From assembly GCA_963682055.1 (NCBI GenBank), contig OY821742.1:16089752-16153751 (forward strand): a stretch of DNA of 64,000 nucleotides. The letters are read 5' to 3'. Position numbers and translations under genes: made by a program. This DNA comes from Primula veris. Taxonomy: Eukaryota; Streptophyta; Magnoliopsida; Ericales; Primulaceae. The notes beneath the pieces are model-generated. The model was not told the origin of the DNA, did not search any database, and saw nothing but the letters and a program-made list of their open reading frames with translations. This document shows positions 3,331 to 61,533 of the stretch, in pieces (position 1 is the first letter of the stretch; the number at the start of each line of letters is the position of its first letter).

Positions 3331-3472
3331 TGAATTGGAAGACCTTTGCTCGTATCGTCTTGTTTACTAAACTAGTTATACATTCTTTATTCATTTAGAA
3401 ACTTAACGAACATGAAGTTATTATGTTACGATGTGAATGCGACACGTTTGACTAAAAAGGTGAGGCATTAGT

Positions 3473-3788
3473 TGTAGAAACTGTGTAAACTGTTTGTATT
3501 ACGATCATCAAGGAAACTTGATGATCGTGTTTATATATAAAAGAGCATCTCGTATTTATATATATATAGAGAGAGAATATAGAAAAGGTAAAAGTTATGT
3601 TCTATTTAGTCCCCTTGACCTTATATAGTAATAGTTTACATTAATTACAAATTACCCTTGTACATTATGTAAATTGACACATTGAGTCCAAGATTCACAA
3701 GCTGTCTTATAGTTTACTGAATACTTCAATTAAGTCCCTGTATTCCTGAAACATTACAAATAACACTACAAAACACACAATGTTAATA
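3473..3788 (-). repeat. Copia 3' LTR (left copy)
   Basis: 316 bp direct repeat of 8421-8736, starting TGTAGAAACTGTGTAAACTG on the plus strand and ending at AATGTTAATA. It is the 3' LTR because the element reads leftward. Confidence 0.93.
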
Positions 3789-3800
3789 TACCTCCCTCAA
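3789..3800 (-). promoter_or_regulatory. polypurine tract of the Copia element
   Basis: On the minus strand TTGAGGGAGGTA lies immediately upstream of the 3' LTR, where plus-strand DNA synthesis is primed. Confidence 0.8.
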
Positions 3801-4160
3801 TATGGATTGTGCAAAGAAAGCACACCCATCTTGAGGAATAAACTGTTAAACATAGGAGCTTCAAGAGCCTTTGTGAACAAATCAGCAAGATTATTGTTTG
3901 AATAAACATGCATTGGATGAACTATTTTCTGTAAAATTTTCTCCCTTATAAAATGGCAATCTACCTCTATATGCTTACTTCTTTCATGGTGTACCGGATT
4001 ATTAGCTAATGCTATCTGTGTAAAGAATGGCAGGTTTATCATGATTTACACCAAAATCCTTAAGTAAACTTGTTAACCATACAATTTCACAACTTGTTGT
4101 TGCCATAGCCCTATATTCTGCTTCTGCAGAACTCCTAGATACAATTTGCTGTTTTTACTC
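3797..4160 (-). pseudogene. RNase H C-terminal part of Copia pol, frameshifted
   Basis: The pol reading frame is lost near 4155 at an A-run after the SWKSK motif of RNase H. The neighbouring frame from there encodes the expected continuation (SRSSAEAEYRAMA-type motif). The original frame returns near 4025 with IALANNPVHHERSKHIE, the conserved end of Copia RNase H, and closes at 3797. Two compensating frameshifts, with a small loss at the second, therefore break the last domain. The polyprotein as read stops at 4073, so RNase H should be inactive unless a frameshift is bypassed. Confidence 0.85.
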
Positions 4161-7100
4161 TTCCATGAAATAAGAGAATCTCCTAAATAGACACAAAAAC
4201 CAGTCACTGACCTTCTACTATCTAAACATGCAGCCCAATCAGAATCAGTAAAAGCTTTCAAACTAAGTTCTGAGGTGGAGGAAAAGAAAATACCCAGTGA
4301 TGGATTGTTCTTAATATATTTTAAAATTCTAATTGCTGCATTATAATGATCAATACTAGGAGCAGATAAAAATTGACTTAAAACATGTACAACATAACTA
4401 ATATCAGGTCTTGTTATGGTTAGATATAACAATCTTCCTATTAACCTTCTATATTTAGTAATATCATCTAACAGATTAGTATTATAAGAAGTAAACTTAA
4501 TCTTAGTATCCATGGGAAATAAAGATGGCTTAACAGCCAACTGTCCTGTATCTTCTAACAATTCTAAAGCATATTTTCTTTGGCAAACATGTATTCCTAA
4601 ACTACTTCTAGCTACCTCAAGTCCAAGAAAATACCTGAGTGGACCCAAGTCTTTTAGCTGGAACTTAGTATTGAGACGAATCTTTACCTGTTCAATCAAA
4701 GAAGAAGAAGCACTTCCTAACAAAATATCATCTACATAAACAAGTAAAACCAAAAAATCTCCATTTTTATTATAGGTAAACAAAGAATGATCAGCTACTG
4801 ACTGTTCAAACCCAAAAGATATCAAAGCCATATTTAATTTTGAAAACCATTGTCTTGAAGCCTGTTTTAAACCATATAAGGACTTTTGTAATTTACAAAC
4901 CAAAGATGGTGACTCATTTTTCTGAAAACCAGGTGGAACCATCATATAAACCTCTTCATCTAATTCACCATGTAAAAAAGTATTATTTACATCAACTTGT
5001 GACAAAAACCAACTTTTAGATGCTGCAACAGCCAAAAAAGTCCTAACAGTAGTCATTTTTGCAACAGGTGAAAAATTAGCATCATAATCTATTCCTTCTA
5101 ACTGAGTATAACCTTTTGCAACTAATCTAGCCTTATATCTTTCTATAGTTCCATCAGATTTATGTTTAATCTTATAAACCCACTTACACCCTATAAGTTG
5201 TTTTTCTTCTGGTAACTTAATTAAAACCCATGTCTTATTAGCCTCTAAGGCTTCTATTTCTTTCTTCATAGCTTCTAACCATAAATGATTAGTCTGAGCC
5301 TGCTTATAAGTTTTAGGTTCTATATTAGCAGAAATAGAGAGACAAAAAGACTTATAATTCTTTGAAATATTATTATAAGACAAAAAAGAAGATAAAGGAT
5401 ATGTAAGTGTACTGCTATGACTTAAAACATTGTTCATTTGAACATGAAAATTCTGCAAATAACCTGGAGTTTTATGTGCCCTCTTTGTTCTCCTTTGTAC
5501 CTGTGCATCTATATCATCACTAATAATATTACTAGTTCTATTTTTAGCATTATTGTGACTATTATCTTGATTAACACCACTAATACCACTATTATCATTT
5601 GTATTATGGACTTCATCTTTCTGAAAAATAGATAAACCATCAACATTTATATCTTTAGAATATAGAAATATATGCTCATAAAAAACTACATCTCTACTAA
5701 GAAAAAAAAAATGTGTATCACAGTCATATAGTTTATAACCTTTAGTACTAGTCCCATAACCAACCATAACACACTTTCTTGTTCTTTTATCAAACTTAGT
5801 TCTATTTCTGGACAAAGTACTGGCAAAACACAAACTTCCAAAAACTCTAAGATGATTATAAGTAGGTTTCTTATTATACAACATCTCATATGGTGACTTA
5901 TTACCTAACAAAGGAGTTGGCAATCTATTTATTAAATAAATCGCTGTTAAAACACACTCTCCCCAAAAAATAAGAGGCAAAGAAGATTGAAACCTAAGAG
6001 TTGTGGCAACATTAAGAATATGTTGATGTTTTCTTTCAACAACACCATTCTGATGTGGAGTATCCATACAGCTAGTCTGGTGAATAATACCATTGTTAGC
6101 ATAAAAACAAGACAAATTAAACTCACTACCATTATCAGATCTTAATACTTTAATCTTTAAACCAAATTGTGTTAAAACCATTTGATGAAACATAGGCAAG
6201 ATTGTAGCAGTTTCAGACTTATGTTTTAACAAGAAAATCCAAGTACACCTAGTATAATCATCAACTATAGTTAAAAAATATTGTTCTGCAACATGAGTAG
6301 CAACAGTATATGGACCCCATAGATCACAATGAATAATATCAAAAGCACAAGTAGTTACAGTATTACTAACAGGAAAAGAAGACCTGTGATGTTTAGAAAA
6401 ATGACAAAACTCACAAACTACATCATTATTATCCATACAAATAGTATCATTGATTTCAACTGAAACAAGTCTAAGAATAGACTGAGAAGGATGTCCTAAC
6501 CTAAAATGCCACACACTTAGCTTATTCTGAATAGCAACATTATTACAAGAAAGAATAGAATCAAAAGAAGACTTTATAACAACTGGATTTTTAAAAATGT
6601 AAAGACCATGCTGCTCTTCTGCACTACCAATCATCTTCAAGGAGCCCTGGTCCTGTATTGAACATATTTTATCTCTAAAAATTAAAGAGCAAGTTGAATC
6701 TCTTGCTAACTTACTAACTGAAACAAGATTAAAACTAAAAGAAGGTACACACAACACATTATGTAACACCAAACCTGACTGAAAAAATATTGTTCCTATA
6801 TGAGTTACTAAAGTAGTGTTCCCATTAGGTAAATTCACATGTGGTATACAAGAAGCTTTAACTTCTGAAAAATAATTAGAGCTATTAACCATGTGTTCAA
6901 TAGCACCACTATCTAAAATCCAATTTGCATTTAATTTGGTTTTACTAACAAAACTATTACTGTAAGTAGATAAAGAGGTAAAAGCAAAGGATATAGGTAT
7001 ACCTGACATTCCTGTGTATGTCAAATTAGAAAAAGGTGTGGCTTGCTGAGAATCAGAAAAAGATGTTGTTTGATGAACCATATGATCAGAAACACTAGAA

Positions 7101-8194
7101 GTCTGATCAGAAACACTAGAAGACATATTCTGATGAGATGGTACTGGATAAGGTGAATGAAACAACTGCTGTTGTGGTTGAAAAACTAACTGAGATTGAG
7201 CATAAGCTTGATGAGCTTGAGGTTGTGTACCACTAAACCTAGACACACCAAAACTAGCCCTTGGCCTAGGCCTCCACCCTGGTGGATAACCATGAACCCT
7301 ATAACACCTATCTTTGGTGTGTCTATCAGAACCACAGTGAGAACACCTCATGATACCTTTTCCAGAATTATAACTTGGTCTAAAACTACCAGAATTTGGC
7401 CTAAAATTGTATGAACCTGGCCTATACTTACTATTATCCTGAGAAGACTGGGCAATCAAAGCCATATTATGTACTGGTACATTCTTACCAATACTATTTT
7501 GTTTTTCATCCTGAGTAATCATGACATAAATGTCATTCATAGTGGGCATTGGTTTCATTAGAAGAATTTGCCCCCTTGCCATGGAATAACTCTCATTTAG
7601 ACCCATCAAGAATGTCATCTTAAAAACTCTATTTTCTCTAATAATAACAGCACTCATGAAATTACAGGTACAACTTCCTATAGTCCCACAACTACACCTA
7701 GGAAGTGGACTTAGAATATTTAAAGAATTCCAATAAGTTTCCAGTTTAGTAAAATAAGAAGCAACACTCATATCTCCTTGAATAGTACTATGTAATTCTT
7801 GATGCAACTCATAAATTCTTGCTTCATTTCCTTGAGAAAACCTTTCTGTTAACTCTCTCCACATGTTATTAGCAGTATCAACATATAAAATAGATTGAGC
7901 AATCTCATCATTTATTGAATTTATTATCCAACTCATTACAATCAAGTTACACTGCATCCAAGCACCATACGAGACATCTCCCTCTACTGGGCATATTAAA
8001 GAACCATTAATAAACCCTAATTTGAATTTTGCCCCTATTGAAATTTCCATAGCCCTTTTCCAAGAATGAAAATTAGACCCTGCTAATTTAGGGTTTACTA
8101 AACTAGTACTGATATTCTCATTAGTACTAATGAAATAAGGATTCATGGTATTAATAGGCTGATTAGAAACCGAATCTAGATTAACTCCAGACAT
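4073..8194 (-). CDS. Copia Gag-Pol polyprotein (1373 aa, RNase H truncated)
   Basis: This encodes the capsid, protease, integrase and reverse transcriptase needed for retrotransposition through a cytoplasmic particle. Visible domains in order: an N-terminal gag region (LAGSNFHSWKRAMEI near 38-52); a CCHC zinc knuckle at 284-297; an aspartic protease with DSGA at 428-431; an HHCC GAG-pre-integrase zinc finger at about 563-597; and an integrase core with CDLWGPY (about 623), RSDNG (about 686) and E near 720. Reverse transcriptase spans about 985-1230 with the YVDD box at 1153-1156, followed by the start of RNase H (TDSDW near 1316). Gag and Pol share one frame, as is usual for Copia. The start lies about 225 bp inside the 5' LTR. 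The only clear break is the frameshift at the RNase H end. Protease reads DSGAIEHM where DSGATDHM is common. I see no internal stop. Confidence 0.95.
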   Translation of the reverse strand: MSGVNLDSVSNQPINTMNPYFISTNENISTSLVNPKLAGSNFHSWKRAMEISIGAKFKLGFINGSLICPVEGDVSYGAWMQCNLIVMSWIINSINDEIAQSILYVDTANNMWRELTERFSQGNEARIYELHQELHSTIQGDMSVASYFTKLETYWNSLNILSPLPRCSCGTIGSCTCNFMSAVIIRENRVFKMTFLMGLNESYSMARGQILLMKPMPTMNDIYVMITQDEKQNSIGKNVPVHNMALIAQSSQDNSKYRPGSYNFRPNSGSFRPSYNSGKGIMRCSHCGSDRHTKDRCYRVHGYPPGWRPRPRASFGVSRFSGTQPQAHQAYAQSQLVFQPQQQLFHSPYPVPSHQNMSSSVSDQTSSVSDHMVHQTTSFSDSQQATPFSNLTYTGMSGIPISFAFTSLSTYSNSFVSKTKLNANWILDSGAIEHMVNSSNYFSEVKASCIPHVNLPNGNTTLVTHIGTIFFQSGLVLHNVLCVPSFSFNLVSVSKLARDSTCSLIFRDKICSIQDQGSLKMIGSAEEQHGLYIFKNPVVIKSSFDSILSCNNVAIQNKLSVWHFRLGHPSQSILRLVSVEINDTICMDNNDVVCEFCHFSKHHRSSFPVSNTVTTCAFDIIHCDLWGPYTVATHVAEQYFLTIVDDYTRCTWIFLLKHKSETATILPMFHQMVLTQFGLKIKVLRSDNGSEFNLSCFYANNGIIHQTSCMDTPHQNGVVERKHQHILNVATTLRFQSSLPLIFWGECVLTAIYLINRLPTPLLGNKSPYEMLYNKKPTYNHLRVFGSLCFASTLSRNRTKFDKRTRKCVMVGYGTSTKGYKLYDCDTHFFFLSRDVVFYEHIFLYSKDINVDGLSIFQKDEVHNTNDNSGISGVNQDNSHNNAKNRTSNIISDDIDAQVQRRTKRAHKTPGYLQNFHVQMNNVLSHSSTLTYPLSSFLSYNNISKNYKSFCLSISANIEPKTYKQAQTNHLWLEAMKKEIEALEANKTWVLIKLPEEKQLIGCKWVYKIKHKSDGTIERYKARLVAKGYTQLEGIDYDANFSPVAKMTTVRTFLAVAASKSWFLSQVDVNNTFLHGELDEEVYMMVPPGFQKNESPSLVCKLQKSLYGLKQASRQWFSKLNMALISFGFEQSVADHSLFTYNKNGDFLVLLVYVDDILLGSASSSLIEQVKIRLNTKFQLKDLGPLRYFLGLEVARSSLGIHVCQRKYALELLEDTGQLAVKPSLFPMDTKIKFTSYNTNLLDDITKYRRLIGRLLYLTITRPDISYVVHVLSQFLSAPSIDHYNAAIRILKYIKNNPSLGIFFSSTSELSLKAFTDSDWAACLDSRRSVTGFCVYLGDSLISWKSKNSKLYLGVLQKQNIGLWQQQVVKLYG

Positions 8195-8408
8195 AACCCA
8201 AAAACAGAACCAAGAACCCTAATTTCAAACAAAACTAGGTTTGAGAAACGAAGAAATAAAAGAAGACTTGAGTATAGATATTACCCGATTTTCTGAGAAA
8301 TAAAACCCCTTTTAAAGAAGTATGAAACAGGCTAATCTTCCAATTCTGTGGAAAAAAAGCCCTAATTCTGTGAGAATTGAAAACAGCGGAACAACGAGCT
8401 TATAAACT

Positions 8409-8420
8409 GCTCTTATACCA
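8409..8420 (-). promoter_or_regulatory. primer binding site, initiator tRNA-Met type
   Basis: On the minus strand TGGTATAAGAGC directly follows the 5' LTR. It matches the plant initiator tRNA-Met PBS (TGGTATCAGAGC) with one mismatch. First-strand cDNA synthesis would start here. Confidence 0.9.
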
Positions 8421-8736
8421 TGTAGAAACTGTGTAAACTGTTTGTATTACGATCATCAAAGAAACTTGATGATCGTGTTTATATATAAAAGAACATCTCG
8501 TATTTATATATAGAGAGAGAAAGAATATAGAAAAGGTAAAATTTATGTTCTATTTAGTCCCCTGGACCTTATATAGTAATAGTTTACATTAATTACAAAT
8601 TTCCTTTGTACATTCTGTAAATTGACACATTGAGTCCAAGATTCACAAGCTGTCTTATAGTTTACTGAATACTTCAATTAAGTCTTTGTATTTCTGAAAC
8701 ATCACAAATAACACTACAAAACACACAATGTTAATA
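8421..8736 (-). repeat. Copia 5' LTR (right copy)
   Basis: 316 bp, the same length as 3473-3788. Differences include several C/T changes near the right end and a shifted short TA/GA run. Confidence 0.93.
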
Positions 8737-8741
8737 TTAGT

Positions 8742-10575
8742 ATCCCTATTTCCGCTTTATAATTATTTCAACATTTAACTGATTTTAAACAACCATATAA
8801 TCTAATTATAGAATAAAAGCAAATTTCAATACACATTTTAAGTTCACAAAATTTTGGATTTCAAGTTGAAAAGATCACTTTAATACTAAGGTAAGATGGT
8901 TTTAGGAGGAAGGTGGATAAGTTTAAGTTTTAAGATAAATATATTATATTTTTTCACATATTACTGGTTTTTCTTTTCTTTTCTTTTTCTGCCGCTTCTT
9001 TCACATATCACACACACGTCTCCTATATTCCCACGAACTGCTTCCCTCAATTCTCTCTTTTTCTGCAACTGATAAGTAGCACTGCGACTCCAAAGTGGAC
9101 ACTTGACAAGTTCATTGGTTATAAATTGTTTTCCTTTCTTTTTTTCTTTCAAATTTTTTATGTGTCTCGTCTCATTGCAGGATATTTACTGAATGCAGCG
9201 AGGCTATATCAAGATTTGTTAACTGATAAGGTTACTAATTTCCAAAATAAAATGAGTTTTGTAATGGTTGATTATCTTAATTTTAGTAATTTTTACAAGA
9301 AAAAAAATTTATCGGTAGTTTAGAAACCAAAATTCAGGTTGATGATAGAAATTTGTTGCGTTCGGTATTTTTGTGCAATTGAGATACGACGTTTGTGTTT
9401 GATGTTGGTTTCTACTTGGTTCTCGATTTAATTTTTCTTATTATGTGAATCAATTTGGAAGTTTTGATTGGAATAGGCTGTTTAAGTTGGCTTTACTTCA
9501 TTTTCCAATATGTGGTCTTTCATATGTTGATAAATTAATTTTCGTCCAACCCCATTGGGCCAATTCAATGTTAATAGACATTCTGTTTCTAGTTATGGGT
9601 TTCTTTTGTTGCATAATGTTTTATCTTATTTTTTTTATAATCAAAATTTTATTAAAACTCGGAACCAAAATAGAAGCGAGAGAAGTATTAGAGTTTGACT
9701 AAAAAAAAATATAAGAAAGCAAAACCAATACGAGAGAATGTAAAAGGAAGAAAAAAAAAAGGTGAACTCCGAGCTATTCTATAAGCGCTTGCTCCCAAAT
9801 CATATTTTATCTTGTGATGCATTAACTTTCATTAGATATTTCAAATAACCAACTCAATCCCTCTAATTTTTATGTATTTACCTCCAGTAATAACCTAAAG
9901 CCATCTATTAAAGATTACATATTATTTCATATGGGCTTAGAAGTTGCAGATTTTTAGCCAAAAAATGAGCTTATTTGAAGATATGTAAAACATTTATCTT
10001 AAATCTTTAACCTTTTCACAATTGATAAGAAATAAAAAGTAATGGGCAATCAAACAAGGCCATATATTTACTTTTCTTTTGTGTTTTTGTAAAGTCAGCT
10101 GCATACCTTATACAAAATGTTGCTTGTGTTCTTAAAGAACCTGTATAGGTTGTTAGAACCGCAACCTTTAACTAAATGAGCTGCCTTATTTGAATATGTG
10201 AAAATACTGGTTCATTTAGCTTAAACTTTTAACCTTCCCATAGCACAAATAAGAGAAGCTCAGATCAACAAAGAAACGAGCTACAAAGCCACAACTAAGC
10301 AAGCTCTATACGTACTTCTTTTAGTAAAAAAACTGTGTTTCTGAAATATCAGTTGTTTATTGTCGGTGTTCTTATTGATTGAGTTTTATCAAAAATTAAA
10401 AAAAGCTATTTTACTAGTATTGTCAGTTTATGATAACTTTTTTCATAGCTACTGAACTAGTATTGTACTAGTATTGCAGACATCAATTGGCCGAATTGCA
10501 GAAGCGACACGCTTTGAATCTTTATCTTCCGAATCTAGGATCGTAATCGGTCGTCATGGTTGACCAGAAGGTGCA
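8742..10575. other. non-coding region left of the CACTA gene remnant
   Basis: No recognisable coding region. The open frames at 9126-9323 and 9445-9702 have low-complexity, hydrophobic translations without known motifs. I looked for a CACTACAAG left terminus of the CACTA element here and did not find one. Confidence 0.4.
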
Positions 10576-13353: not shown

Positions 13354-15390
13354 ATCTCCCATTATAGACTTAAAGCCTTGCTGACATACATCTCACTCAC
13401 ATGTTCTCCACATGCCTACTAAAAGTATTCGTCGGAAGACTTTTAGTGAATGGATCGGCTAGGTTGTTTGTCGATGCAATCTTAGTCACTACCACATCTC
13501 TTCTTTCTACGATCTCTCGTATAACGTGATACTTCTTCTGGATGTGCTTAGCCTTCTTGTGTGTTCTAGGTTCCTTCGTATTCGCAACGGCCCCACTATT
13601 ATCGTAATAAAGTGTAACAGGCGATTGTGCAGAACGTACCACACCAAGATCCAAAAGAAAGTTTCGGAGCCACACAGCCTCTCTAGCTGCCTCATTGGCA
13701 GCCACATACTCAGCTTCCATAGTTGAATCAGGAACGCAATCTTATTTGATGCTTCTCCAACTAATGACTCCACCTCCTAATGTGAACACCTTTCCAGAGG
13801 TTGATTTTCTGGAATCCATATCTGACTGAAAATCTGAGTCTGTATACCTAGTAGGCACTAGACTATCCGCATCGTAAACCAACATGTAATCTTTAGTTCT
13901 TTTCAGATACTTGATTATATGTTTTACTGCAGTCCAATGTTCCTACCCGGGATTAGACTGAAATCTGCTACCCATACCAACAGCAAAGCAGATATCAGGT
14001 CTAGTACACAGCATTGCGTACATCAGGCTTCCTACTGCCGAATCATAAATAACTGCCTTCATCTTATTTATCTCAATCTGAGTTGTAGGACACTGATTGA
14101 TTGATAAATGTATTCCATGCCGAAAAAGTAAGAAATCTTTCTTGGAATCCTGTATGCTGTAACGGGCGACACTATCATTGATATAGGATGCCTGAGATAA
14201 ACCCAACATTCTACATTTCCGATCACGTATAAGTTTGATCCCGAGAATGTGATCGGATTCTCCCAAATCCTTCATATCGAATTGTCCAGATAACCATACT
14301 TTGACCACCGATAATACTCCTACATCGTTTCCGATTAGTAGTATATCATCAACATATAGTATTAAAAACACATTAACGCCTCAATCATGCTTCATGTAAA
14401 CACATGACTCGTCATAACTCTGATTAAAACCGTAAGATTTAATGGCTTGGTCAAAGCGATTATTCCAAGACCCCGATGCTTGTTTAAGCCCATAAATGGA
14501 CCTTTTAAGCTTGCACACTAAATGATTTTGGTCCTTTGCTATGAATCCATCTGGTTGCACCATATAGATGCATTCCTCAAGACTTCCGTTAAGAAAAGAT
14601 GTCTTGACATCCATTTGCCAAATTTCGTAATCGAAATGATCCCCAATAGACAAGAGAATTCGGATAGACTTTTGCATGGCTACCAGCGAAAAGGTTTTCT
14701 CATAACCGATCTCTTCTTTCTGAGTAAACCCTTTCACAACAAGCCTTGCTTTAAAGGTTTCCACCTTACAGTCTGATCCTCTGTTTATCTTATAGATCCA
14801 CTTATATTCAATGGGTTTTATCCCCTCGGGTGGTTCTATAAGCTCCCAGACCTGATTAGAGTACACAGACCCCATCTCAGCATTCATTGCCTTTTGCCAG
14901 AGTTCTGCATTTTTGTCCTGAAGTGAATCTTTGTAGTTAACTAGTTCGGTATCTAACCCTTCCGGGATCCTCTCGAAAGATTCTCCCAAGAGTGTGTACC
15001 TTACCGGAGGGTTTATAGTCCTTCCACTATGACGAGATATTCTAGCATTATCTAATGGTATTGGCTCTGTGTCTTGTATTATTTCTTATTCTGTGGGTAA
15101 CTTAGAAATCTGTTCACGCAAGTTCACTCTCATCTCCTCTAAAACAATCCTACTTGTGGGTTTGTGGTTCATAATAAAGTCCTCTTCTAAGAATCAGACA
15201 TCAGTGCTAACCATGACCTTCTGATCCTTAGGACAATAGAATAAACCATCTTTCGTTCCTTTAGGGTACCCAACAAATAAACAAACATCTGTTCTAGACT
15301 CTAACTTGTCAGTCTTTACCTTAAGTACATGTGTCGGACTACCCCACACTCGAATATGTCTTAGACTAGGCTTACTCTACAATTCGTTTC
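13354..15390 (-). pseudogene. degenerate Copia pol (integrase end, RT, RNase H)
   Basis: Minus-strand blocks follow Copia pol order. 15370-15000 encodes the integrase C-terminal region (RVWGSPTHVLKVKTDKLE and VGYPKGTKDGLFYC-like motifs) with an in-frame stop. 14989-14381 encodes RT (KWIYKINRGSD, FKARLVVKGFTQ, QMDVKTSFLNG, YGLKQASGSW). 14371-13943 has the YVDD box (LYVDDILLIGND) and LGIKLIRDR. 13773-13397 is RNase H (EAEYVAANEAAREAVWLR and YYDNSGAVANTKEPRTH with KHIQKKYHVIREI). Frames change between blocks and stops are present. Gag, protease and the integrase core are absent: the element stops at the Gypsy LTR junction near 15391. Confidence 0.88.
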
Positions 15391-15391
15391 C

Positions 15392-16085
15392 TTAGTATTA
15401 TGTTAACTTAATATTAATAAAAGGTTTAGGGAGTAATGCCCTGCTTTTTGTTAAAACGTTTGTATTAATGATGACTACGTGCTTTTTACATATTGATTAG
15501 AAGGAATTCTATCAATAATAATGATTATTTATTATGAAGAAAATTTTGTTGTTATTGTGAGGTTATCAATTTTTGACTAATTGTCAACTTTTGGCACATT
15601 TAATACTTAGTAAGAAAACTCTCTAACTTTCAAGCTAGTTTAACATAATTATATAATAACCATAGCTCATGTTCTACTAAGTATTATCATCCGTTTGTAA
15701 AGATTCTACTATTTTTTACAAATGTGGAGCTTTTGAATAAGTTATCATTAATATAAATATTTTAATACAAGTGGTGGTTAATACTTTTCCGAAAACCTTT
15801 ATCTCATAAAATTAAAAATAAAACACTTCGAATCATTAATAAAAATATTTGTTTTGTCCTCTAAATTTAAGCTTCGAATAATATAAAGGCCTTCTAAGTT
15901 ATAAAAATTATTAAAAGGTTCCTAATTGTGAGATTGTTACACTTTACCTCGTTAATATTTTATTTTCTTTCGCAGCAATTTCGTTTTGAAGTATCTTAAG
16001 TAAATTCATTGTGTACGATATAATTGGGTTATCCCGAGAAGATAATACTCAACTACCACCTAAACTTGGGTGTGTTTTTAGAAGA
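15392..16085 (+). repeat. 5' LTR of Gypsy, probably 5'-truncated
   Basis: This matches 25268-25968 from TTAGTATTATGT to GGGTGTGTTTTTAGAAGA with scattered differences and small indels. It does not begin with TG at the similarity edge and abuts truncated Copia pol. Together with the polypurine tract at 24291 this suggests that it is only the last ~690 bp of a longer LTR. Confidence 0.85.
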
Positions 16086-16527: not shown

Positions 16528-17935
16528 ATGTCATCTTGGACTCGTAGTCAAACAGACCGACTAATTAGAGAACACGTAGAACTTGATAGTATCACTCTTT
16601 TACCACGTAATTTTACACTTAATAATTTAATGGACCAAAATCAACAAAACGAACATAATTTCGAATCTGAAATGGAACAAAATGAACATGATAGGAGAAG
16701 TAATGCCGGAGATAATGTTATAAATGAAGAACCTAGAACATTACGACAATATCTTGTGCCCGAATGCGAACCAACTCCATGTATTATTTTGCCTCAAAAC
16801 GCAAACCAATTTAATTTTAGACCAGGCATAATCCAACTCTTGCCAACTTTTCATGGAATGGACTCTGAAAGTCCATACTTATTTATTAAAGATTTTGAGG
16901 ACTTGTGGTAACAATAGAAGATAGAAATTGCCAAATAGAAATAACAAAACTTAAATTTTTTCCATTTGCACTTAAAGATAGAGCAAAAGAATGGTTAAAT
17001 GGTTTAAAACATTTTTCTATCTGAACATGGCGTTACATGACAATAGAATTTTTTAAGAAATATCTTCCCGTTCATCGAACAAACACTGTAAAAAGACATA
17101 TTATGAGTTTTTCTCAAAACAAAAAAGAAAATTTTTATAAGTGTTGGGAACGTTACAAAGATCTTATAAATACATGTCCACACCATGGTTTTGAAAAATG
17201 GCGCATTATAAGTTTTTTTTATGATGGTCTAAATTCTTAAACACGACAATTTGTTGATATGATGTGTCAATGCCAATTTTTAAACAAACAACCAGACGAA
17301 ACATTCGATTATTTAAATGCTCTTCTGAAAATGCACAAGCATGGGAATCGTTAGGTCCATTAAAAAAAGATTCTAAAAATACATCTCTTGGTCGAGAAAT
17401 GTATCAACTTAGTGAACAAGACGCCTTAAATGCTAAAATTACAGCTTTATCTAGAAAAGTAGAGAAATTAATAATAAAGAAACCAAACTCTAACTCTACC
17501 CAAATAGCAGAAGTATGCAGAATATGCGCCATAGTAGGTCATACAACAATGGAATGTAGTCTTATGCCAATACTTGATAATAAGGAAGAACAAGTAAATG
17601 TTATAGGACAATATAAAATAAATGAAAATGGCCCTTACTCAAACATTTATAATCCCGGTTGCAGAAATCATCCTAATTTAAGATGGGAAAATAATTTCAC
17701 TGAAAATCCTTCTCAAAATGTACAAGGACCTATCGGATACCCACCGTATCAACGACAGAGTAACCCTGTTAAACAATCTTATCAAGCTCCACCTCCTAAT
17801 TATCAAAGAGATAAAATTTTAGAGGATACATTAAAAGAGTTTATGCAATTTTCTATGAATATTCAAAATGCCCAAGCGATTAAGGACTTAAGAACGAGTG
17901 TTTCCCAATTAACTAATTCACTTCAAGTATAATAA
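16528..17935 (+). pseudogene. Gypsy gag, broken by stops and frameshifts
   Basis: Gag builds the particle that packages element RNA. Blocks: 16528-16911 (gag N-terminus, ending in LLPTFHGMDSESPYLFIKDF); a frame shift, then LKFFPFALKDRAKEWLNGL near 16950; 17037-17240 (FFKKYLP, SFSQNKKENFYKCWERYKD, CPHHGFEKW), the retrotransposon gag core; and 17264-17932. The last block has a CCHC knuckle CRICAIVGHTTMEC (about 17516-17557) and a Q/N/P-rich tail. At least three stops or frameshifts divide it, so no full Gag can be made. Confidence 0.85.
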
Positions 17936-24300: not shown

Positions 24301-25968
24301 TGATTAGTTGTAAATATTGTATTATTTTTTTACTATTATTATGTAATGTTTTAAGAACAAATCTATAATAATATGTGCAAGTTAACTATTATTATGTAAA
24401 TTATTGTTTTGTACCATTTTACTTGTTTTTATAGTATAATTGCAGAAATAAAGAGACCGGCGCTATGGGACAATATTGAACGGGGTGTTATAAATTCAGA
24501 TAAAAAAAATGGGCTCAGTTTAGTATTTTTTTTTAGATTAAAGAAGCTACGGAAGGCAGAAAATTACGATATTTATATTTTCGAAAAATTTGAAGAATTT
24601 CCTACAAATTTCAATTACAAAGTTTTTGCAAATTCTATCATCTTAAGAACGTGAATTGAGATATAAAAATTCAGGGAAAAAAAGGAATGGATAATAAAAG
24701 TGCAATTTGTCAACATCACTAATTGAATAATTTGAAACTTTGCGCATGTAACTGTATACTCTATCACGCAGCGAAGAAAAAAAAAGAAAAATTCGGTGGG
24801 ATGTCATACGCATGCAGCGTGCTATAAATAGAAAAGAAAATAAATAAAAAGGAAATTAATTTAACAAACTCCACAGAAATCAAGCATGCATTCAATACAT
24901 GTTGTAAGGATCAAAAAATGGATGGAGCTTTCGATACATGTTTTTAATGAATTTCTTATATCTTATCACGCGAATAAGAAGAAAAAGCAGCTGCTAAACT
25001 ATTGATCTACAGTTTTATTGAAAATTTTGTGGATTTCTCATGCCGTACTTGTATATAAATAGATATCACAACAAATGAAGAAGACGAGGAGAAAAACAGA
25101 AAAGAAAAAAAAACAGAGAGAAGAAAAAAATCAGTAGTTGAGAAATGTAATAGTTTCATGATTTGAATTAATGCACGGTTCCTCCATCCGATATTTGTAA
25201 TATTTTGTATCAACGTTCTATCCCTCTTTAATTAATATGTTTAAATTTTATTATTTTGTATTGTTCTTTAGTATTATGTCAACTTAATATTAATAAAAGG
25301 TTTAGGGAGTAATGCCCCATTTTTTGTTAAAACGTTTGTATTAATGATGACTACGTGCTTTTTACATATTGATTAGAAGAAATTCTATCAATAATAATGA
25401 TTATTTATTATGAAGAAAAGTTTGTTGTTATTGTGAGTTTATCAAGTTTTGACTAATTATGGACAAAATTACTTTTGGCACATTTACTACTTAGTAAGAA
25501 AACTCTCTAACTTTCAAGCTAGTTTAACATAATTATATAATAACCATAGCTCATGTTCTACTAAATATTATCATCCGTTTGTAAAGATTCGACTATTTTT
25601 ATAAATGTGGAGCTTTTGAAAAAATTATCATTAATATAAATATTTTAATAGAAGTAAAGGTTAATAATTTCCCGAAAACTTTTATCTCATAAAATTAAAA
25701 ATAAAACACTTCGAATCATTAATAAAAATATATGTTTTGTTCTCTAAATTTAAGGTTCGAATATTATAAAGGCCTTCTAAATTACAAAAATTATTAAAAG
25801 GTTCCTAATTGTGAAATTGTTACAATTTACCCCGTTAATATTTTATTTTTTTTCGCAACACTTTCGTTTTGAAGTATTTTAAGTAAATTCCTTATGTACG
25901 ATATAATTGGGTTATCCCGAGAAGATAATACTCAACTAACACCTAAATTTGGGTGTGTTTTTAGAAGA
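24301..25968 (+). repeat. 3' LTR of Gypsy (full length inferred, ~1.67 kb)
   Basis: Only 25268-25968 has a partner at the 5' end of the element; 24301-25267 is assigned from the preceding polypurine tract, the TG start and an internal TATA-like box (CTATAAATA at 24822). The alternative is a ~0.7 kb LTR starting at about 25268, but then no polypurine tract adjoins it. Confidence 0.55.
24822..24830 (+). promoter_or_regulatory. TATA-like box in the inferred Gypsy 3' LTR
   Basis: CTATAAATA in a GC-containing context (GCAGCGTGCTATAAATAG), as expected for an LTR U3 promoter. Transcription from it was not tested. Confidence 0.4.
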
Positions 25969-30276: not shown

Positions 30277-30509
30277 AAAGTTACTCTTTAAAGAAATTTT
30301 TTTATTGTGTCTAGAGAATTGTCCCTAAAATTGAGGTTTTTGGTAGTGATATAACAACAAAAGAGAAAACATATAGTTTTATGGGCAATTTATTATGTAT
30401 TATGTTTGTGTAATCAAAAATTAAATATTTACCATGACTAATTTCTTAATCTGAACAAAATAATAAATTAATTAAACTTAGCAAATAATGTTAATTAGCT
30501 ATAGAATAC

Positions 30510-31195
30510 GAGCCTGGATTTTTCTACCACACTTTTTCTGAAAAAACGCACAAACCGTAAATTTTTTGTCCAAACTGTATATTTTAATTTGTTTATGGTT
30601 TGTGTTTTTAGTGAAAACCGTACAAAAAATATACAGACCATAGATTAAATTTACGGTTTACACTGCTGTCAATTTAACAAACTAAAAACAGAATTCGCTC
30701 TCTCTCTTTCACAAAAAACACAGAGAAGCTTTAAAAAAAACCCAAAAAAACCCCAAATCATCACTAATCAATCAAAATAAAAATCATATCCATCCAAATT
30801 CGTCCGATTAAACCACGTTTACATTTAATTCACCAAATTAGATATCCTAATTCAAGATATTTCTTTATTCCCTAATTTATTATTTATTTTATATAGTTTC
30901 AATTTATAAAATAGGGAAAAAGATATAAAATATGCCCAATGGTTATTCAATTGGTTATTATAATTTCTTGTTATTAGTTGAATATTAATTAAAATAAGCT
31001 GTTTTTTAAGCTGTTTTAAAACAGCTTAGAAGCTGTTTAATTAAACAGCTTTTAAGCTGTTTTTACAAGCTGTTTTTAAAACAGCTTAAAAGCTGTTATT
31101 TACACAGCTATTACGGGGTTTTTTTAAACAGCTTACAAGCTGTTTAATTAAACATATTTTAAGTTGTTTTTAAACAGGTTTTAAGCTGCTTTTCA
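30510..31195 (+). repeat. left inverted repeat arm of the MULE
   Basis: The outer 200 bp repeat ACAAACCGTA-type decamers; the middle shares CTAATTCAAG and AATAGGGAAAAAGATATAAA with the right arm. The inner part (31005-31195) is an array of short palindromes of the form AAACAGCTTNNAAGCTGTTT. Confidence 0.85.
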
Positions 31196-31199
31196 CTGA

Positions 31200-32650
31200 T
31201 TTTGAGGGAAAAATTATGGGATTAGATCTTTATCGCAATGAGGTTTTTGAATTCCATGTTTCTTCTGTGATAGTCGTTACTCTTTAATGATTTCTTCTTG
31301 CATGTCAGTTTTATCCGTCTCCATTATAACATTGAATTGGGCCTTATAATATGAATGAACATGTCACAAACACATTTTCTTTCTTCCTAAACAGTTCGGA
31401 AGCATTTGTCTCTGGTATTTATGTTGGCTATATTACTCAGATAAAATAAAGGGTAATTGCGTAATGTGATCCTGTCATCCCAATTTGGTGATGCTCATGT
31501 ATTTTGCCTTTTCACATTTCAGGACCCCAAATCATTCTCCTCATTTGTGTTGGAGTTCTTTCAAGGTGATTTAAGTTCTGTGTTCCACAACTCTCTCAGT
31601 TTTCTTGTTTTTGTCTGATTTAATTCTTTTTTGATTGAAGCTTGCATCATGAATCGCTGAAAGCTCAGAAGGCAATTAATGAGGTAAGGTTATTAGTCTA
31701 TAGCGCCTACTTGTTTGGTTTCCAAGCATTCACTAGCTTTTACATCTGGCAGCTTTTTGTCAAATTCAACATTTACTTTGCTGGTGTTTCTAAAAGCATT
31801 CTACATCAAATGCCAATATAGATGGAACGGATTTTGCTAGTTTGGTTTCTCAGATCAGTTCTATGAGTTTTGAAACGTCCAACTTACATTGGCGGTAAAA
31901 TATTTCCTCTTTGAACTCATTTGTATATTCTTATTGTTGCATTGATTATTATGCATCAAGTTTGTTTGTTTAATTTTTCTTTCATTGATGTCTACCTTGC
32001 AGGTCCTTGCTGATACATCATCTTTATCGTCATACTTTGCTTGATAAATGAATACATGCATCAAAGAGAAACTATACTTCAGAATAGGACCGGTCAGAGG
32101 AATGATAGAAACTCCTATTGTATTTTAGCGTTAGCAAGCATCAGGAAATACCCATAAAAACTGTAGAAAGTAATTTTTTGTTACTTTTTTCTTCAGGTAC
32201 TCTAAATTTGTATTTATACAATAAGAGTTGCCCAATATTTTTATTTATATAAGCATGAGCAACATTTCTCTGTTACTTTTCCTTTCTTCCTCTTCTCGTT
32301 AGTAGAAATGAAATATGTATGTAGTGTTCTTTGCACAGTAATGCTGAACTGCAATGAATGGAAATGTACATTTACTGAGGAATGGAAGTTTCACGGGTGT
32401 AGATTAATTATTCATTTCATACACATTCTCCGCATTTTAACATGTCATAAACTTTGCTACTTCCAACTTTATCCAACAGGGTCATCAAACTGAAAGAAAA
32501 AGATGTCTATCTACCTAGCTAGGCTATTAATTTGAGACAAAAATACATTCAATATACATATGATTTAGTAGTATAATTTACAAGAATTTTCTGGTAAGGA
32601 CCACATTTTAATTATTTATTTGAAGAAGTGATCTTGCCTAGAAGTTGAAA
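31200..32650 (+). other. MULE interior: exon-like sequence of unknown origin
   Basis: Candidate exon-intron signals are present. A stretch with HHESLKAQKAINE is followed by a GTAAGG donor near 31684. Another with TDFASLVSQISSMSFETSNL ends before GTAAAA near 31896. TACCTTGCAG precedes a short stretch near 32003 that ends at a stop. These could be captured pieces of a host gene, but I do not recognise the protein. No long open frame exists. Confidence 0.35.
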
Positions 32651-32683
32651 ACTCAAAGCCAATCTGGGTGAGAAAACGACATT

Positions 32684-33303
32684 TTATCTAATCTTGGCTT
32701 TGATTTGCCCTTCAATTGATCCTGCAAAAGCAAACAATGAGACGAACAAGCAAACAGTGACGTAAATACGAAGAATTATCCACTTCCTTGTCCAAGATCC
32801 AACTTTCTTTTGTGTTATATACATTTCCGTTGGGAAGTATATAACCAAGGGCCAAAACTTTAAGGAGCCTGCAAATCCTACAACTTGGTTGAAGTAAGGG
32901 AACCTAATTGCAATCCATGTGATTAGCGTCACGTATAGTCCGAAAACACAGTCGTAGGAGATCACCTTAATTCCGGAAACAATGGGATATTTAAAATGTA
33001 ATCATGATTTACGAATCGTGCAAAAGCAAACAATCAGGGTTTTTTTTTTTTTTTTTTTTATAGTTTTTATAAGTTGGGTGTTCCCAGGATACTTCTCCAA
33101 AAACTGTTTCTACGAGTTAAGATGATAAACACATTTCTGCAATCAATTTAATCAAAACCGACATAAATAAACCGACAAAACCGACATTTCCCTGAAATCC
33201 TCCAATTAAATGGACAACAATGCATGCATTGGCAAAAGCAATAAGCCAATAGGGCTCGTAAAATCCAAATCCTGTTAATAGATTCCCAGGTGCCGAATCC
33301 TGT
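32684..33303 (-). pseudogene. captured amino acid permease (AAP) gene fragment
   Basis: AAPs are plasma-membrane proton/amino acid symporters with about 11 membrane spans. Two minus-strand blocks match their C-terminal half. 33303-33188 encodes PGNLLTGFGFYEPYWLIAFA then NACIVVHLIGGFQ. 32965-32684 encodes FPYFNQVVGFAGSLKFWPLV, IYFPTEMYITQKKVGSWTRK and SIEGQIKAKIR with a natural stop. The last two are the conserved penultimate loop and C-terminus of plant AAPs. The usual sequence between these blocks is missing, replaced by a poly(T) run and short filler, and everything N-terminal is absent. The fragment therefore cannot make a transporter. It lies inside the MULE, antisense to the exon-like sequence on its left. 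Confidence 0.85.
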
Positions 33304-33434
33304 TATTCAGTAATCTTTTTAAGACAATTCTCACATTTGCTTCTAAGCACAAAACTTTCTGGCTAGTTTGCTGAATATTCAAAATTTTTAGTTTAAGGCA
33401 AAAACTTAATATCATCCAACGTCTTCGTTCAGGC

Positions 33435-34455
33435 TTTTTAAACAGCTATTAAGTTGTTTTTTACACAGCTATTACGCTGCTTTTTAAACAGCTTAAAAGC
33501 TGCTTAAAAAACAGTTTAAAAAATCTTAAAAAACATCTTAAAAGCTGTGTAAAAACCAACTTTTAAGCTGTGGTAAAAATAGCTTAATGACGACCAAACA
33601 ATTAGTAATAAATATCTAAATAAACAAATTTGAATAAAAACCCTATTTTTTTATAAAACGGGAAAAATATCAACAACCCTAAGTTTTTTTAATTAATATA
33701 CAACTAATATTTATGCAAACAAAGTAATTAACATAAAAATCAACAATTTTTTTTAAAAAAAACCTAATTTTCAAAACGGATAAATATTAATAAACTCTAA
33801 CTATTTTTATTTTTTACAATCAAAACAAGATAAGGAAACCAAACAATTAGTAATAAATATCTAAATAAACAAATTTGAATAAAAACCCTATTTTTTTTAT
33901 AAAAAGGAACAGATATCAACAACCCTAATTTTTTTTAATTAATATAAACAAACAACAAGTAGTTATAATCGCTAAGTGAATAATCAATTAATCAATTGAC
34001 ATATTTTATATCTTTTTCCCTATTTTACAAATTGAAACTACAAAAAATAAATAATAAACTAGGGAATAAAGAAAAACCTTGAATTAGGGTATCTTTTTTT
34101 GATTGGTGATTTGGGGGTTTTTTTGATGAAATTTGATTGGTGATTTGGGATTATTTTTTTGAGAAATTTGATGGTTATGGTTTCTATTTTGGCTGATTTG
34201 GGTTTTTTTTTGGACTCAAGGAAAGATAATGAGAAAGAGAACGCAGGAACTGTAATTTGACACAGGGACTGACTGTGTAATTTTTCAGTACAAACCGTAG
34301 ATTTTATCTACGGTCTGTAGATTTTTTTTACGGTTTGTATTGCATCACAAACCGTACATTTTTTCTACGGTTTGTACTTAAAATGTACGGTTTGTACAAA
34401 AAATATACGATTTGTGCGTTTTTTCAGAAAAAGTATAGTAGAAAAATTCAGCCTC
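33435..34455 (-). repeat. right inverted repeat arm of the MULE
   Basis: Mirror of 30510-31195, expanded by an internal direct duplication: CCAAACAATTAGTAATAAAT recurs at about 33595 and 33839. The outer 200 bp contain at least five copies of the TACGGTTTGT-type decamer. The AGCTGTTT palindrome array reappears near 33435-33600. Confidence 0.85.
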
Positions 34456-34822
34456 ATAGAATAACTGTGATTGTATAAAAGGAAGTGTGATAAAAAAAAT
34501 GTTGAAAAAAAATGTTACTGGTGAGTCTCGAACTCAAGACAATGTCCCATATTGGAACCACTTTTGTTTTACAATAATAGATTTTGAGCCAATTTGCATT
34601 AGTAAAAAAGAACAAAAGTTATAGTTGATCTGGAATTTTTAAGAATCATAAGCACACTAATACAACGCACACTTAAATATTTTATTTAAAACTCACATTC
34701 AACATATTGAACACCACTTCACAACATGCCTTATTCGTACTAAGAACTCACATGAAAACAAATGTAGTTCAGTTTACTGATCCTGAAACGTTTAACAACC
34801 CTAAATGGGCCGCCAGAATCAT

Positions 34823-34862: not shown

Positions 34863-36199
34863 TTAGTTTTTTGTTGTCTCAACGACATCAGTTTTGCACG
34901 GAGGGTGATAGCAATAATGTCCGTGTCCGCCATGTCCACCGTGTCCATATCCACCACCGTGCCCATATCCACCTCCGCCGTGCCCATATCCACCTCCACC
35001 GTGTCCATATCCACCTCCGCCGTGTCCATATCCACCGTGTCCATAGCCATGACCCTCTACATGATCTAATTATAGAAACAAGAAAAGTGTGTTATAACAT
35101 AAAACCAAAATCAGGCCAGGAAGCTTTGATGAGTACTAAGCAATTCATGCATACAATAGTTCTGTAATGAAACGCATATTGGTTGAAGCTTTTAAGCTCA
35201 TCAATTTTTTATAACGTTAGTGATGTAATGACTAATGAGACTTACATTTGTTCTTTGAAGTTATCTTTTTGATTAGTTAAATTATTCATAGATTATTTGC
35301 ATTAATCTCTTGTTTGTAACTCATTAAATGCAAAATTTGGCATCAATGTCATGTCTAGATTTTTAAAAAGCCTCATTTTTTTGGGAACTTAATGTTGAGT
35401 ACATATACCTTCGGACTAAAAAACAGAATTTGTATTTTTTGTTTAAGAATTAGTATATATCAATGTATCATCCTTGAACATTGAAATTGAATAAGGACAT
35501 CACTTTGAATAAGACTATAAAAACACACAAAAAATGCAGCGTCATTGAGAACTTGTACTAAATCTTGAAAGAAATTTTATCCCCTTTATTTTGACAAAAT
35601 AGCAATATTTCCTGATATCTTAATTATATTTCCATTACATCGTTCCCAAATGTTCATACCATCACAAAATAGAGCAACATTATAACGATAGATTCGTCAA
35701 CAAATAAAAAACTGGTTTTAATACATACTTGTTAGCTACTATCATTCTATTATAATAAGTCAATTCAAATCAAATGAGTCTGCTCAATTTAGCCACTTTT
35801 TTTTCAAAAATACCCCTACACTTTTTTATTAATTACAATAATATCATATTCTCATAAAAATATGAAAAGTAAAAAACTAATAAAATTATTTATCGTTTTT
35901 TAACAACCAAATATTCTTTTAAATGTTAAACTATATTTTTTTTTGTATTATCCACATATTTATATCATAACTATACATATTTTTTATATTTTTATTGCAT
36001 TACGCGCCGCATACGCAACGCATGGGGGACGATTACTAGTATATATATATATACAAAACATCTGTTTTGTGTGCACATATATGTATAACGATGGAAAATA
36101 CTCACTTTCACTTAGCTCTCTAGCTGCAACCTGAGAGGAAATAACCAGAAATAGAGCTAAAACAAGCCCTAGAACCAGAAATTTTTTGGAGTATGCCAT
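34863..36199 (-). CDS. glycine-rich secreted protein (GRP3-like), two exons
   Basis: Exon 1 (36199-36106) encodes MAYSKKFLVLGLVLALFLVI then SSQVAARELSE: a signal peptide of about 27 residues with the VAARELSE motif typical of small plant glycine-rich cell-wall proteins. It ends at a consensus GTGAGTA donor. Exon 2 starts after an ATTAG acceptor at 35065 and runs to a TAA at 34863-34865. Joining them keeps frame through a split Asn codon (SENHVEGHGYGH) and gives about 98 aa. The mature part is a run of GYGHGG/GGGYGHGG repeats ending in HYCYHPPCKTDVVETTKN, with two Cys in the tail. The class is usually apoplastic; GRP3 relatives bind wall-associated kinases, and that role is inference here. The ~1 kb AT-rich intron is long for such a gene. 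A TATA box and AATAAA flank the gene. No lesion is seen. Confidence 0.88.
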
Positions 36200-36283: not shown

Positions 36284-36483
36284 GTGACATGTAAACACAA
36301 GATGGCCCAGTGGTTCACTAAAAAAACATTAATTTTTGTTGAGTATGAATTAAAGCAGAAAGGGGACTAGACTCCACGCAATAGGAGTCCTCAAACTCTT
36401 TTATTTAGTAGCCGTTGGATATATTTAAAAAACATCTAATGGTAAATATTTAATAACCTATGAATAATTTAACTAAGTTATCT

Positions 36484-36880
36484 TATAATTGTACTTTCTC
36501 GGATAATCAGATATCAGTTGGCAAGGAGACCCCGGCGTGGGCTTCTCGCCTGACTTTCAATCTTGCAGTTGGATATACTTTCCTTTGTGCTTAAAGAACG
36601 TAACTTTACGTGATTTACCTTTTATTTATGATATATGTCATATAGATCGGATGTATCCCTTCCTTTGTGGAGTATCTGATTGATTATTTTAGATACACGA
36701 GTATCTTTTAGAGGATATCTTGCTGATAAGATCATTGGCAAATGAGGCGGGTTCAAAACCCTATCTACTCCTCTCAACAGAGCCATTAAATGCTCATTAA
36801 CTTCGCATTCACTGCTAGGTTTCAGATCGCATACGTGGCCCTTGCCGTAAAATCTTAACCCTAATTTTTAACCTCCATCA
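36484..36880 (-). repeat. 3' LTR of the Tat-like element, truncated
   Basis: Matches the right ~400 bp of the complete LTR, from TGTACTTTCTCGGATA to CTAATTTTTAACCTCCATCA. The outer ~500 bp (equivalent to 42615-43117) is missing and replaced by unrelated AT-rich DNA. Confidence 0.85.
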
Positions 36881-42614: not shown

Positions 42615-43515
42615 TGATATACCTTGAAAATTAGGTCTAGTGCATGAACCTCAAAAATTGTGAGTCGGTGAGGGAGCCAAAAGTAGCTAGAATCAAGTGC
42701 GACTTGGTGCCTTGGCCACCATTTGATCTACTCTGCTTTAAAGGAGCAATGAGAAGCCTAAACCTTTTTAGGATTTTGGATATGAATATATGTCAGTAGG
42801 GTTTAGTAGTACCCGAATAATAAGTGTATGTCTGAGTTTGTATGGGTTCAGATAATCTTCTCATTGGATTATGAGTCCCTTATATATGTGGTGGAAGCAA
42901 TCTCAGGCATATCTCTTGTGATTGATATGATATTATCAATCACATCTTCTCCATATATTTTGCTTCCCTTATGTCGTGTTGAGATACATTCCGCTATATC
43001 TCCCATATCTCTCCACCGACTTGGCTAGCCCGAAGGGTCAACACCTCCTTTCCTCGCATGCGAGGAGAGCTCTTTCAAGTGACCATGTCTCATTCATTAG
43101 CCTTCGGAGGCATTTATCTTGTAAATGTACTTTCTCGGATAGTCAGGTATCCTTTGGCGAGGAGACCCCGGCGTGGGCTCTTTGCCTGGCTTTCAGTCTT
43201 GCAGTTGGAGATACTTTCCTTTATGTTTAATGAATGTATCTTTAAGTGATTGACCTATTTTTATGAGATCTGTTCGCATAGATCTGAAGTCTCCCTTCCT
43301 TTATGGAGAATCTGATTGATTATTTTAGATACACGAGTATCGTTTATAGGATATCTTGCTGATAAGCTCCTCGACGAGGGAAGCGAGTCAGAACCCTATA
43401 TGCTTCCCTCGATGTAGCCATTAAATGCTCATTAACTCCAGCTTTACTGCTAGGATTCAAACCGCATATGGGGCAGTTGTCGAAAGGTGCTAACCCTAAT
43501 TTTTAACCTCCATCA
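42615..43515 (-). repeat. 5' LTR of the Tat-like element, complete
   Basis: Plus strand runs TGATATACC...CTCCATCA, so both ends show TG/CA. It matches 36484-36880 over its right ~400 bp. Confidence 0.82.
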
Positions 43516-60285: not shown

Positions 60286-61533
60286 ATGAAAAAAAAGGCA
60301 CTGCTATTCGAAGCGTATGTGGGCTTTCAACAAATAGTAAATACGGTCATTCATTCTTGTGATGTTTTCAATTTTCATTCGGTACTCGATGGATGTACTG
60401 ATGGTAGTGATGTCGTACCTAGAGGGCCGAATCCTTTCCAGTTGCAAATAGAGCATATCAATTGTTTGGTAAGAGGTAATGACACTCATTGCATATCTCA
60501 GTTACGTATGGATAGACGTACTTTTTTACAATTATGTATACGACTTCAAAATGAGGGGGGGTTGACCAATTCTAGGCACGTGTCATTGGAAGAGAAAACG
60601 GCAATATTTTTAAGAATTTTGACACATCATACTAAAAATCGTACCGTGTGGTTTGAGTTTAGACGGTCCGGTCAAACTATTAGTAAGCATTTCAATGATG
60701 TTTTACGTGCTATTATAAGACTTCAAGGTGAACTACTAGCAACACCGGAGCCTGTCTCAGCTGATAGTACAGATCATGTTTGGAAATATTTTGAGGTAAA
60801 AAGTTATTGATTTTTGATAAGCTAAACATTAATTTATAGTTTCTCAGACTAGAATTGTCTTGGTGCTCTTGATGGAACATATGTTAGGGTCCATGTACAT
60901 ACAAAGGATGCACCTAAGTTTAGGAATCGAAAAGGTCAGCTAGCAACAAATGTATTAGGGGTTTGTAATCAAAATATGCAGTTTATATATGTACTATCCG
61001 GTTGGGAAGGATCGGCCGCCGACTCCCGTGTGTTGCGAGATGCGGTATCACGTGAAAACGGGTTACGGGTGCCTAATGGTTGCTACTTTCTCGTAGACGC
61101 TGGCTACACAAACGGCAATGGGTTTCTTGCACCTTATAGGGAGACACGGTACCACTTGAATCTATGGAGAGAAGATCGCTTTCCAAGATCTAAGGAAGAG
61201 TTTTCTAATCTTAAGCACTCGTCTGCTAGGAATTGTATTGAGCGCTGTTTTGGGTTGTTGAAACTACGTTGGTCTATCTTGCGTAGTCCGTCTTTCTATC
61301 CAATTAAAACTCAAGTCCGGATTATAACAGCGTGTTGCCTGCTGCATAATCATATAAGAAAGTCAATGAACATTGATCCCATGGAAGCTGAATTCGATGA
61401 ACAAGGGCCAGAATTGCCAGATGGAGATCCAATAGACACAATAGAGCCCTCAAATCAATTGACGAATTGGATAGATGAACTCGCAGCGAATATGTATAAC
61501 AATTGGTTGGCTATTAGGGGGAGTGGACATTAG
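60286..61533 (+). CDS. PIF/Harbinger (HARBI1-like) DDE transposase, two exons
   Basis: This cuts and reinserts the element, acting in the nucleus with the Myb/SANT partner. Exon 1 (60286-60795) ends FE before a GTAAAA donor. Exon 2 (60853-61533) begins NCLGALDGTYVRV after a GACTAG acceptor. The 57 bp intron leaves the frame in phase 0 and joining gives 396 aa, normal for the family. The N-terminal half has the helix-turn-helix-like LRMDRRTFLQLCIRLQN and LEEKTAIFLRIL motifs. The catalytic triad is visible: D177 in GALDGT, D227 in GWEGSAADSRVL and E300 in CIERCFGLLKLRWSIL, with VDAGYTN near 252. I see no stop, frameshift or missing catalytic residue. The start is the first ATG of the open frame, and a few upstream residues could be missing. 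Confidence 0.93.

Follow-up and report, generated by a model that had tools for sequence, protein, structure and literature searches.

Gene pieces enclosed by the inverted arms of a transposable element raise the questions from which locus they were taken, how they were joined, and whether they still encode or regulate anything. In this study, we analyzed such a case in Primula veris within a window, i.e. the whole stretch of 64,000 nucleotides considered here (contig C3, 16089752-16153751; window position = contig position - 16089751), and searched the plant's own 436.5-Mb assembly. The stretch 30510-34455 had been predicted from its letters to be a Pack-MULE that captured amino acid permease (AAP) exons in antisense. 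Arms, duplications, the source locus, a common capture junction and relatives with transposase pieces were observed directly. The element is delimited by the following features:

30501-30509, no strand assigned: left target-site duplication, ATAGAATAC, with 8 of 9 bases matching the right flank
30510-34455: Mutator-like element
30510-31190, plus strand: left arm with the terminus GAGCCTGGATTTTTCTAC and subterminal repeats of the AGCTGTTTAA type
33440-34455, minus strand: right arm with subterminal repeats and, read inward, the terminus GAGGCTGAATTTTTCTAC
34456-34464, no strand assigned: right target-site duplication, ATAGAATAA

Start and end of the element had been predicted exactly, and the 9-bp duplication was recovered with its single mismatch (8 of 9 bases equal at 30501-30509 and 34456-34464). 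In a simulation with 200,000 random 9-mer pairs drawn from the window, 66 pairs matched at 8 of 9 bases or better. Inverted arms of about 450 bp are likewise present as predicted, but strongly diverged: element positions 1-488 and the inverted positions 3421-3946 are 68% alike over 539 aligned columns, with 88% complementarity in the outermost 81 nt. Arm-like homology with other copies continues past the left arm to approximately 31314. The predicted lack of a transposase agrees with a Pfam scan of six ORFs of the element, of which two matched Aa_trans and four matched no family; one of the two also gave a PsbI match at 0.035, which is below the cut-off. The longest stop-to-stop frame comprises 105 aa. 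Near the right edge of the element, a 21-bp tandem repeat with five copies is located at 34935-35036, which by eye reads as a Gly/His/Tyr-rich repeat on the minus strand.

The genome search with 32500-33430 as query gave 17 matching pieces from 10 first-look candidates, all 10 of which were scored. Long matches were obtained with the window, with four other arm-bearing copies and with C7:8205848-8207493; the other 5 of the 17 pieces were short matches elsewhere (33-155 bp). The match at C7:8205848-8207493 is without arms, unlike the other five, and is the source. A search for the parent gene and for other copies had been proposed, and it thus delivered an arm-free parent on C7 and four further copies beside family arms. 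No arm match was detected in C7:8202600-8213500, and a short-word comparison over C7:8202600-8216500 gave no arm match beyond a 13-bp chance match. The source locus (C7:8205830-8213130) consists of two convergent genes, an AAP gene on the plus strand and a gene for a proteasome activator of the PSME4/PA200/BLM10 type on the minus strand. The AAP gene looks intact, with five exon frames matching Aa_trans at 3-94, 101-167, 166-216, 212-297 and 289-409 of 410 (the frame at 166-216 below the cut-off). On the minus strand, a 333-aa frame matched HEAT_PSME4 at 8.5e-5, above its cut-off, and the last two PSME4 exons, when joined, gave a match with E 9.7e-10 to residues 1780-1843 of human PSME4, the very end of this 1843-residue protein, the C-terminal ends being YFA in the source and YYA in the human protein. 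The middle PSME4 exon, compared with the PDB, had no match at the default cut-off; with a lax cut-off, non-significant matches were obtained (E 0.16), the top four all being PSME4.

The cargo of the element is composed of four colinear pieces (S1-S4) of this one locus:

31315-31378, no strand assigned: stretch of 64 bases directly preceding S1
31379-31943, plus strand: captured piece S1, from C7:8213130-8212549 (minus strand there), 91% identical
31941-33017, no strand assigned: captured piece S2, from C7:8208054-8206946
32003-32044, plus strand: last PSME4 exon, VLADTSSLSSYFA followed by a stop codon, sense to the left arm
32684-33017, minus strand: fragment of the AAP last exon, Aa_trans 330-407 of 410, antisense to the left arm
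33050-33299, minus strand: captured piece S3, from C7:8206496-8206199, AAP intron and the exon with PGNLLTGFGFYEPYW
33301-33439, minus strand: captured piece S4, from C7:8205972-8205830, AAP intronic sequence

Both predicted minus-strand AAP blocks were confirmed: 32684-33001 matched PF01490 (Aa_trans) with an E-value of 8.5e-13, above the curated cut-off, and 33117-33302 reached 1.9e-4, below the cut-off, but its source exon matched at 2.5e-22. A protein database search gave two AAP relatives (67% and 59% identity) and no more, and a PDB search with the AAP exon gave no match. The plus-strand part belonging to the second gene, 31379-32044, had been overlooked by the original prediction. In S2, the last exons of PSME4 and AAP are accompanied by the 3′ flanks of both genes. 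S1 probably represents PSME4 exons and introns, an assignment by position alone, since the HEAT_PSME4 exon follows downstream of it in the same orientation; two source frames of the S1 region gave no convincing match in a Pfam scan. Inside S3, about 50 bp of intron are missing in comparison to the source. For 31315-31378, no match was found at the parental locus (C7:8202600-8216500). Because the cargo represents adjoining 3′ parts of two convergent genes, transcription from the left arm would yield RNA antisense to AAP, as had been stated, and also sense to PSME4, which makes the earlier description correct but incomplete. The reverse applies to the right-arm strand, which is antisense to PSME4 and sense to AAP.

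At least five copies with the AAP/PSME4 cargo are present in the assembly, i.e. the window copy on C3 and copies at C11:22084430-22085500, C2:7609463-7610536, C12:4495545-4496321 and C7:4900303-4901076. This count refers to copies found with the AAP-block query (32500-33430), and further ones with the PSME4 part alone may exist. The five loci have arms and cargo in common and differ in their flanks. The S1/S2 joint is found at identical source positions in all five, and the borders of the S2/S3 gap are identical in C11, C2, C12 and C7; in the window copy, the right border is the same and the left border falls inside a private deletion. The S3/S4 gap is present in the three copies reaching it (C3, C11 and C2). 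Since all five copies have the internal capture junction in common, a single capture preceded the transpositions. Nothing supports the alternative that would have refuted the original prediction, namely a cargo older than the arms: in each of the five copies it is enclosed by arms, and only the source holds it arm-free.

For two of the three gaps, the direction of change can also be read. The S1/S2 gap corresponds to 4494 bp of the source, and the S3/S4 gap to 226 bp. Since the former includes PSME4 exons and the latter AAP coding sequence, both gaps are losses in the element and not gains at the source. The S2/S3 gap is intronic and comprises 250 bp in the four copies showing both of its borders. 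At the S1/S2 joint, three bases (ATT) are shared, the S2/S3 joint lies within a run of T, and one or two extra bases are found at the S3/S4 joint. Intron sequence was retained, and therefore the capture was from DNA; we infer copying at the DNA level, either by template switching or in the course of gap repair. The available part of PMC8277862 considers models of both kinds, and colinear skips with short shared bases fit them.

Target-site duplications with 8 of 9 matching bases flank the copies on C3, C12 and C11, and none is visible at C2 and C7, each of which has a damaged end. Over S2, the K2P distances are 0.045-0.055 between source and copies and 0.026-0.052 among copies. A tree with the source as outgroup separates the window copy from all others with a support of 87 and groups the latter as C11/C2 (76) and C12/C7 (99); the window copy branches deepest of the five. 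It carries private losses of 4 bp in S1, of 2 bp in the AAP last-exon fragment and of about 155 bp at the 5′ end of this fragment (at 33017). The C12 and C7 copies lack 33130-33573, and in both 31315-31788 is replaced by about 800 bp of other sequence, for which no origin was found at the source locus. In the same two copies (L009, C12:4492200-4498500; L010, C7:4898200-4908000), the outer right arm has given way to an inverted left arm, which adjoins the original inner part of the right arm at a run of A, and the two arms of the C12 copy are 92.6% alike over 689 columns. The C7 copy is interrupted by approximately 7.7 kb (L010/L011, C7:4902587-4910270) with long frames that we take to be retroelement-like; an edge comparison showed no direct repeat, and about 230 bp of the copy are present on both sides of the interruption. 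An inverted repeat of about 680 bp marks the point at which the C2 copy has lost its left end.

With the left arm as query, relatives were found across the assembly (1155 first-look candidates, 40 of them scored), and 20 family regions, two of which overlap, were fetched for study. Pieces resembling a FAR1-like frame, a MULE transposase and a plant mobile domain (PMD) occur in four of these 20 loci (L015, L016, L018 and L024), and a 30-residue piece of a plant mobile domain in L026. Pfam matches comprised PMD in L015 and L016 and MULE (PF10551; 7.8e-27) in L018; the frames that presumably are FAR1-like had no Pfam match. In several loci these pieces are spread over more than one frame, and no intact transposase gene was shown. 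The left arms of the transposase-bearing relatives are 75-77% identical to that of the window copy. Given this value and the 68% likeness of the window arms to each other, no autonomous partner with matching ends was identified. Perfect 9-bp duplications flank L015 and L024 (ATAATAATA and GCAACTTAA) as well as L019 and L021, L019 having C and not G as first element base; at L012, L018 and L020, no target-site duplication was seen. The arms of L019, L020 and L021 are more than 99% alike over about 1 kb, which suggests recent movement of part of the family. L020, L021 and L022 have in common a frame of 156 aa, identical in all three and without Pfam match. An EF-hand frame in L027 (4740-5141) was rejected as cargo, as it lies outside the arm-bearing stretch (7254-9467).

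Other repeats of the window were also recorded. On the minus strand, 4076-8218 forms a single retroelement-like frame of 1381 aa between direct repeats at 3473-3772 and 8421-8720 (95% alike), which may be of the Ty1/copia type. An LTR element is probably delimited by long direct repeats at 15388-16012 and 25264-25895 (92-98% alike, ~9.88 kb apart), which enclose retroelement-like frames; inside this pair, at 17083-17191, lies a match to plant snoR71, by which the window is recognized as plant nuclear DNA. The repeats at 36478-36880 and 43114-43515 (79-86% alike, 6.6 kb apart), which surround a GC-richer stretch, probably belong to an older LTR element. Frames at 60286-61530 (plus strand) resemble, in our judgement, a PIF/Harbinger-type transposase.

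Whether the cargo is still of use was judged from its decay. A chimeric PSME4-AAP protein kept by selection might be imagined, since the hybrid PSME4 intron retains exact splice-site motifs in 4 of 5 copies (C3, C11, C2 and C12) and a 105-aa AAP frame is open in the window copy. However, PSME4 and AAP exons lie on opposite strands, the hybrid intron joins out of frame according to our reading of the exon phases, a frameshifting 2-bp deletion in the AAP last exon is common to all five copies, and the AAP exon contains stop codons in C11, C2, C12 and C7. The ratio of nonsynonymous to synonymous changes is 7:2 for those common to all copies and 16:9 for private ones, compared with 3.5:1 expected without selection; private changes thus lean slightly toward synonymous, at small numbers. 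In most pairs, the exon has diverged about as much as the non-coding sequence or more. These small numbers give no clear sign of purifying selection, and the cargo is most likely devoid of protein function and subject to neutral decay; opposite strands, common frameshift and stops led us to reject the coding chimera as highly improbable. A second use would be regulation in trans, in which left-arm RNA pairs with AAP mRNA, or right-arm RNA with PSME4 mRNA, and small RNAs silence the parents. The orientation permits pairing for both genes, and the AAP last exon of the copies is 94-96% identical to the source. Against this, the substitutions fit neutral decay and the copies keep losing AAP sequence, the second AAP exon being absent from C12 and C7, so that we consider such regulation unlikely. 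A two-way version, with left-arm RNA antisense to AAP, right-arm RNA antisense to PSME4 and double-stranded RNA over the junction, would tie an amino acid importer to a proteasome activator and appears distinctly less probable still. For other elements, antisense or siRNA effects are reported or proposed in the available parts of PMC8277862 and PMC13317346.

The nature of the element itself might also be read differently. The mere 68% likeness of the window-copy arms could suggest two separate arm-like elements flanking an older AAP/PSME4 pseudogene by chance, but four other loci show the same arms together with the same cargo, and three of the five copies are bordered on the outside by 8/9 duplications; this recurring arm-cargo-arm structure refutes chance flanking, to which we assign almost no probability. 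Helitrons, CACTA and other Pack-TYPE elements capture gene pieces as well, so that another class could in principle be responsible. Compared with the features of these classes, the long inverted arms, the 9-bp duplications and the relative with PF10551 instead fit MULEs, and the other classes were rejected as extremely improbable. For Helitrons, gene capture is described in the portion of PMC13317346 at hand.

By every feature testable here, the element is a Pack-MULE. The arm-free parent, the five copies with the same cargo, the 8/9 duplications at three of them and the transposase-bearing relatives support the original prediction, and it is very probable that this Pack-MULE copied four stretches of the AAP/PSME4 locus and then transposed to at least five places. 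An ancestral element would have copied four colinear stretches of the tail-to-tail locus, thereby jumping between them at short shared or homopolymer sequence. The loaded element would then have transposed, creating 9-bp target duplications, and probably depended for its movement on a transposase supplied in trans by larger relatives whose arms are related. It is an ordinary multicopy Pack-MULE family with a two-gene cargo, unusually well documented, and with five copies, an arm-free source and readable junctions it provides a clean case of host-DNA copying by MULEs. One source locus accounts for colinear skips of 4.5 kb and ~0.25 kb and for joins at a 3-bp match or a homopolymer, with a later arm replacement at another homopolymer. 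Also, describing an element as antisense to one gene can overlook half of the cargo where the convergent neighbor was captured too.

Among the papers available to us, none joined a Pack-MULE with an amino acid permease, and looking there for cargo from several genes yielded no useful result. The larger MULEs with PMD (PF10536) of the same genome resemble the window element in their GAGGCTGGATTTTTCTAC-like termini and, in L015 and L024, in 9-bp duplications, but differ in size (8.4-8.5 kb in L015 and L024), in their PMD, FAR1-like and MULE pieces, and in arms of about 165 bp. According to the available text of PMC8277862, one third of the rice Pack-MULEs are multicopy and 40% are transcribed. 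As far as the accessible parts of PMC8277862 and PMC13317346 describe them, rice Pack-MULEs share with the Primula family the gene pieces between MULE arms, the arm-free source on another chromosome and the presence of several copies that arose by repeated transposition. In contrast to the GC-rich preference given for rice in the available parts of PMC3310237 and PMC8277862, the GC content of the Primula cargo is 0.33-0.36 compared with 0.34 in the window, and this cargo spans the adjoining tails of two convergent genes. The tomato PM-ZIBP family of tandem-TIR Pack-MULEs, as described in the part of PMC3310237 at hand, is also multicopy with one gene fragment, and its longest-branched copy has single, poorly matching arms while other copies have a rearranged arm. 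It differs in having tandem TIRs at both ends, whereas in Primula an inverted left arm replaces the outer right arm in the C12 and C7 copies, and the arms of the C11 and C2 copies match poorly as well.
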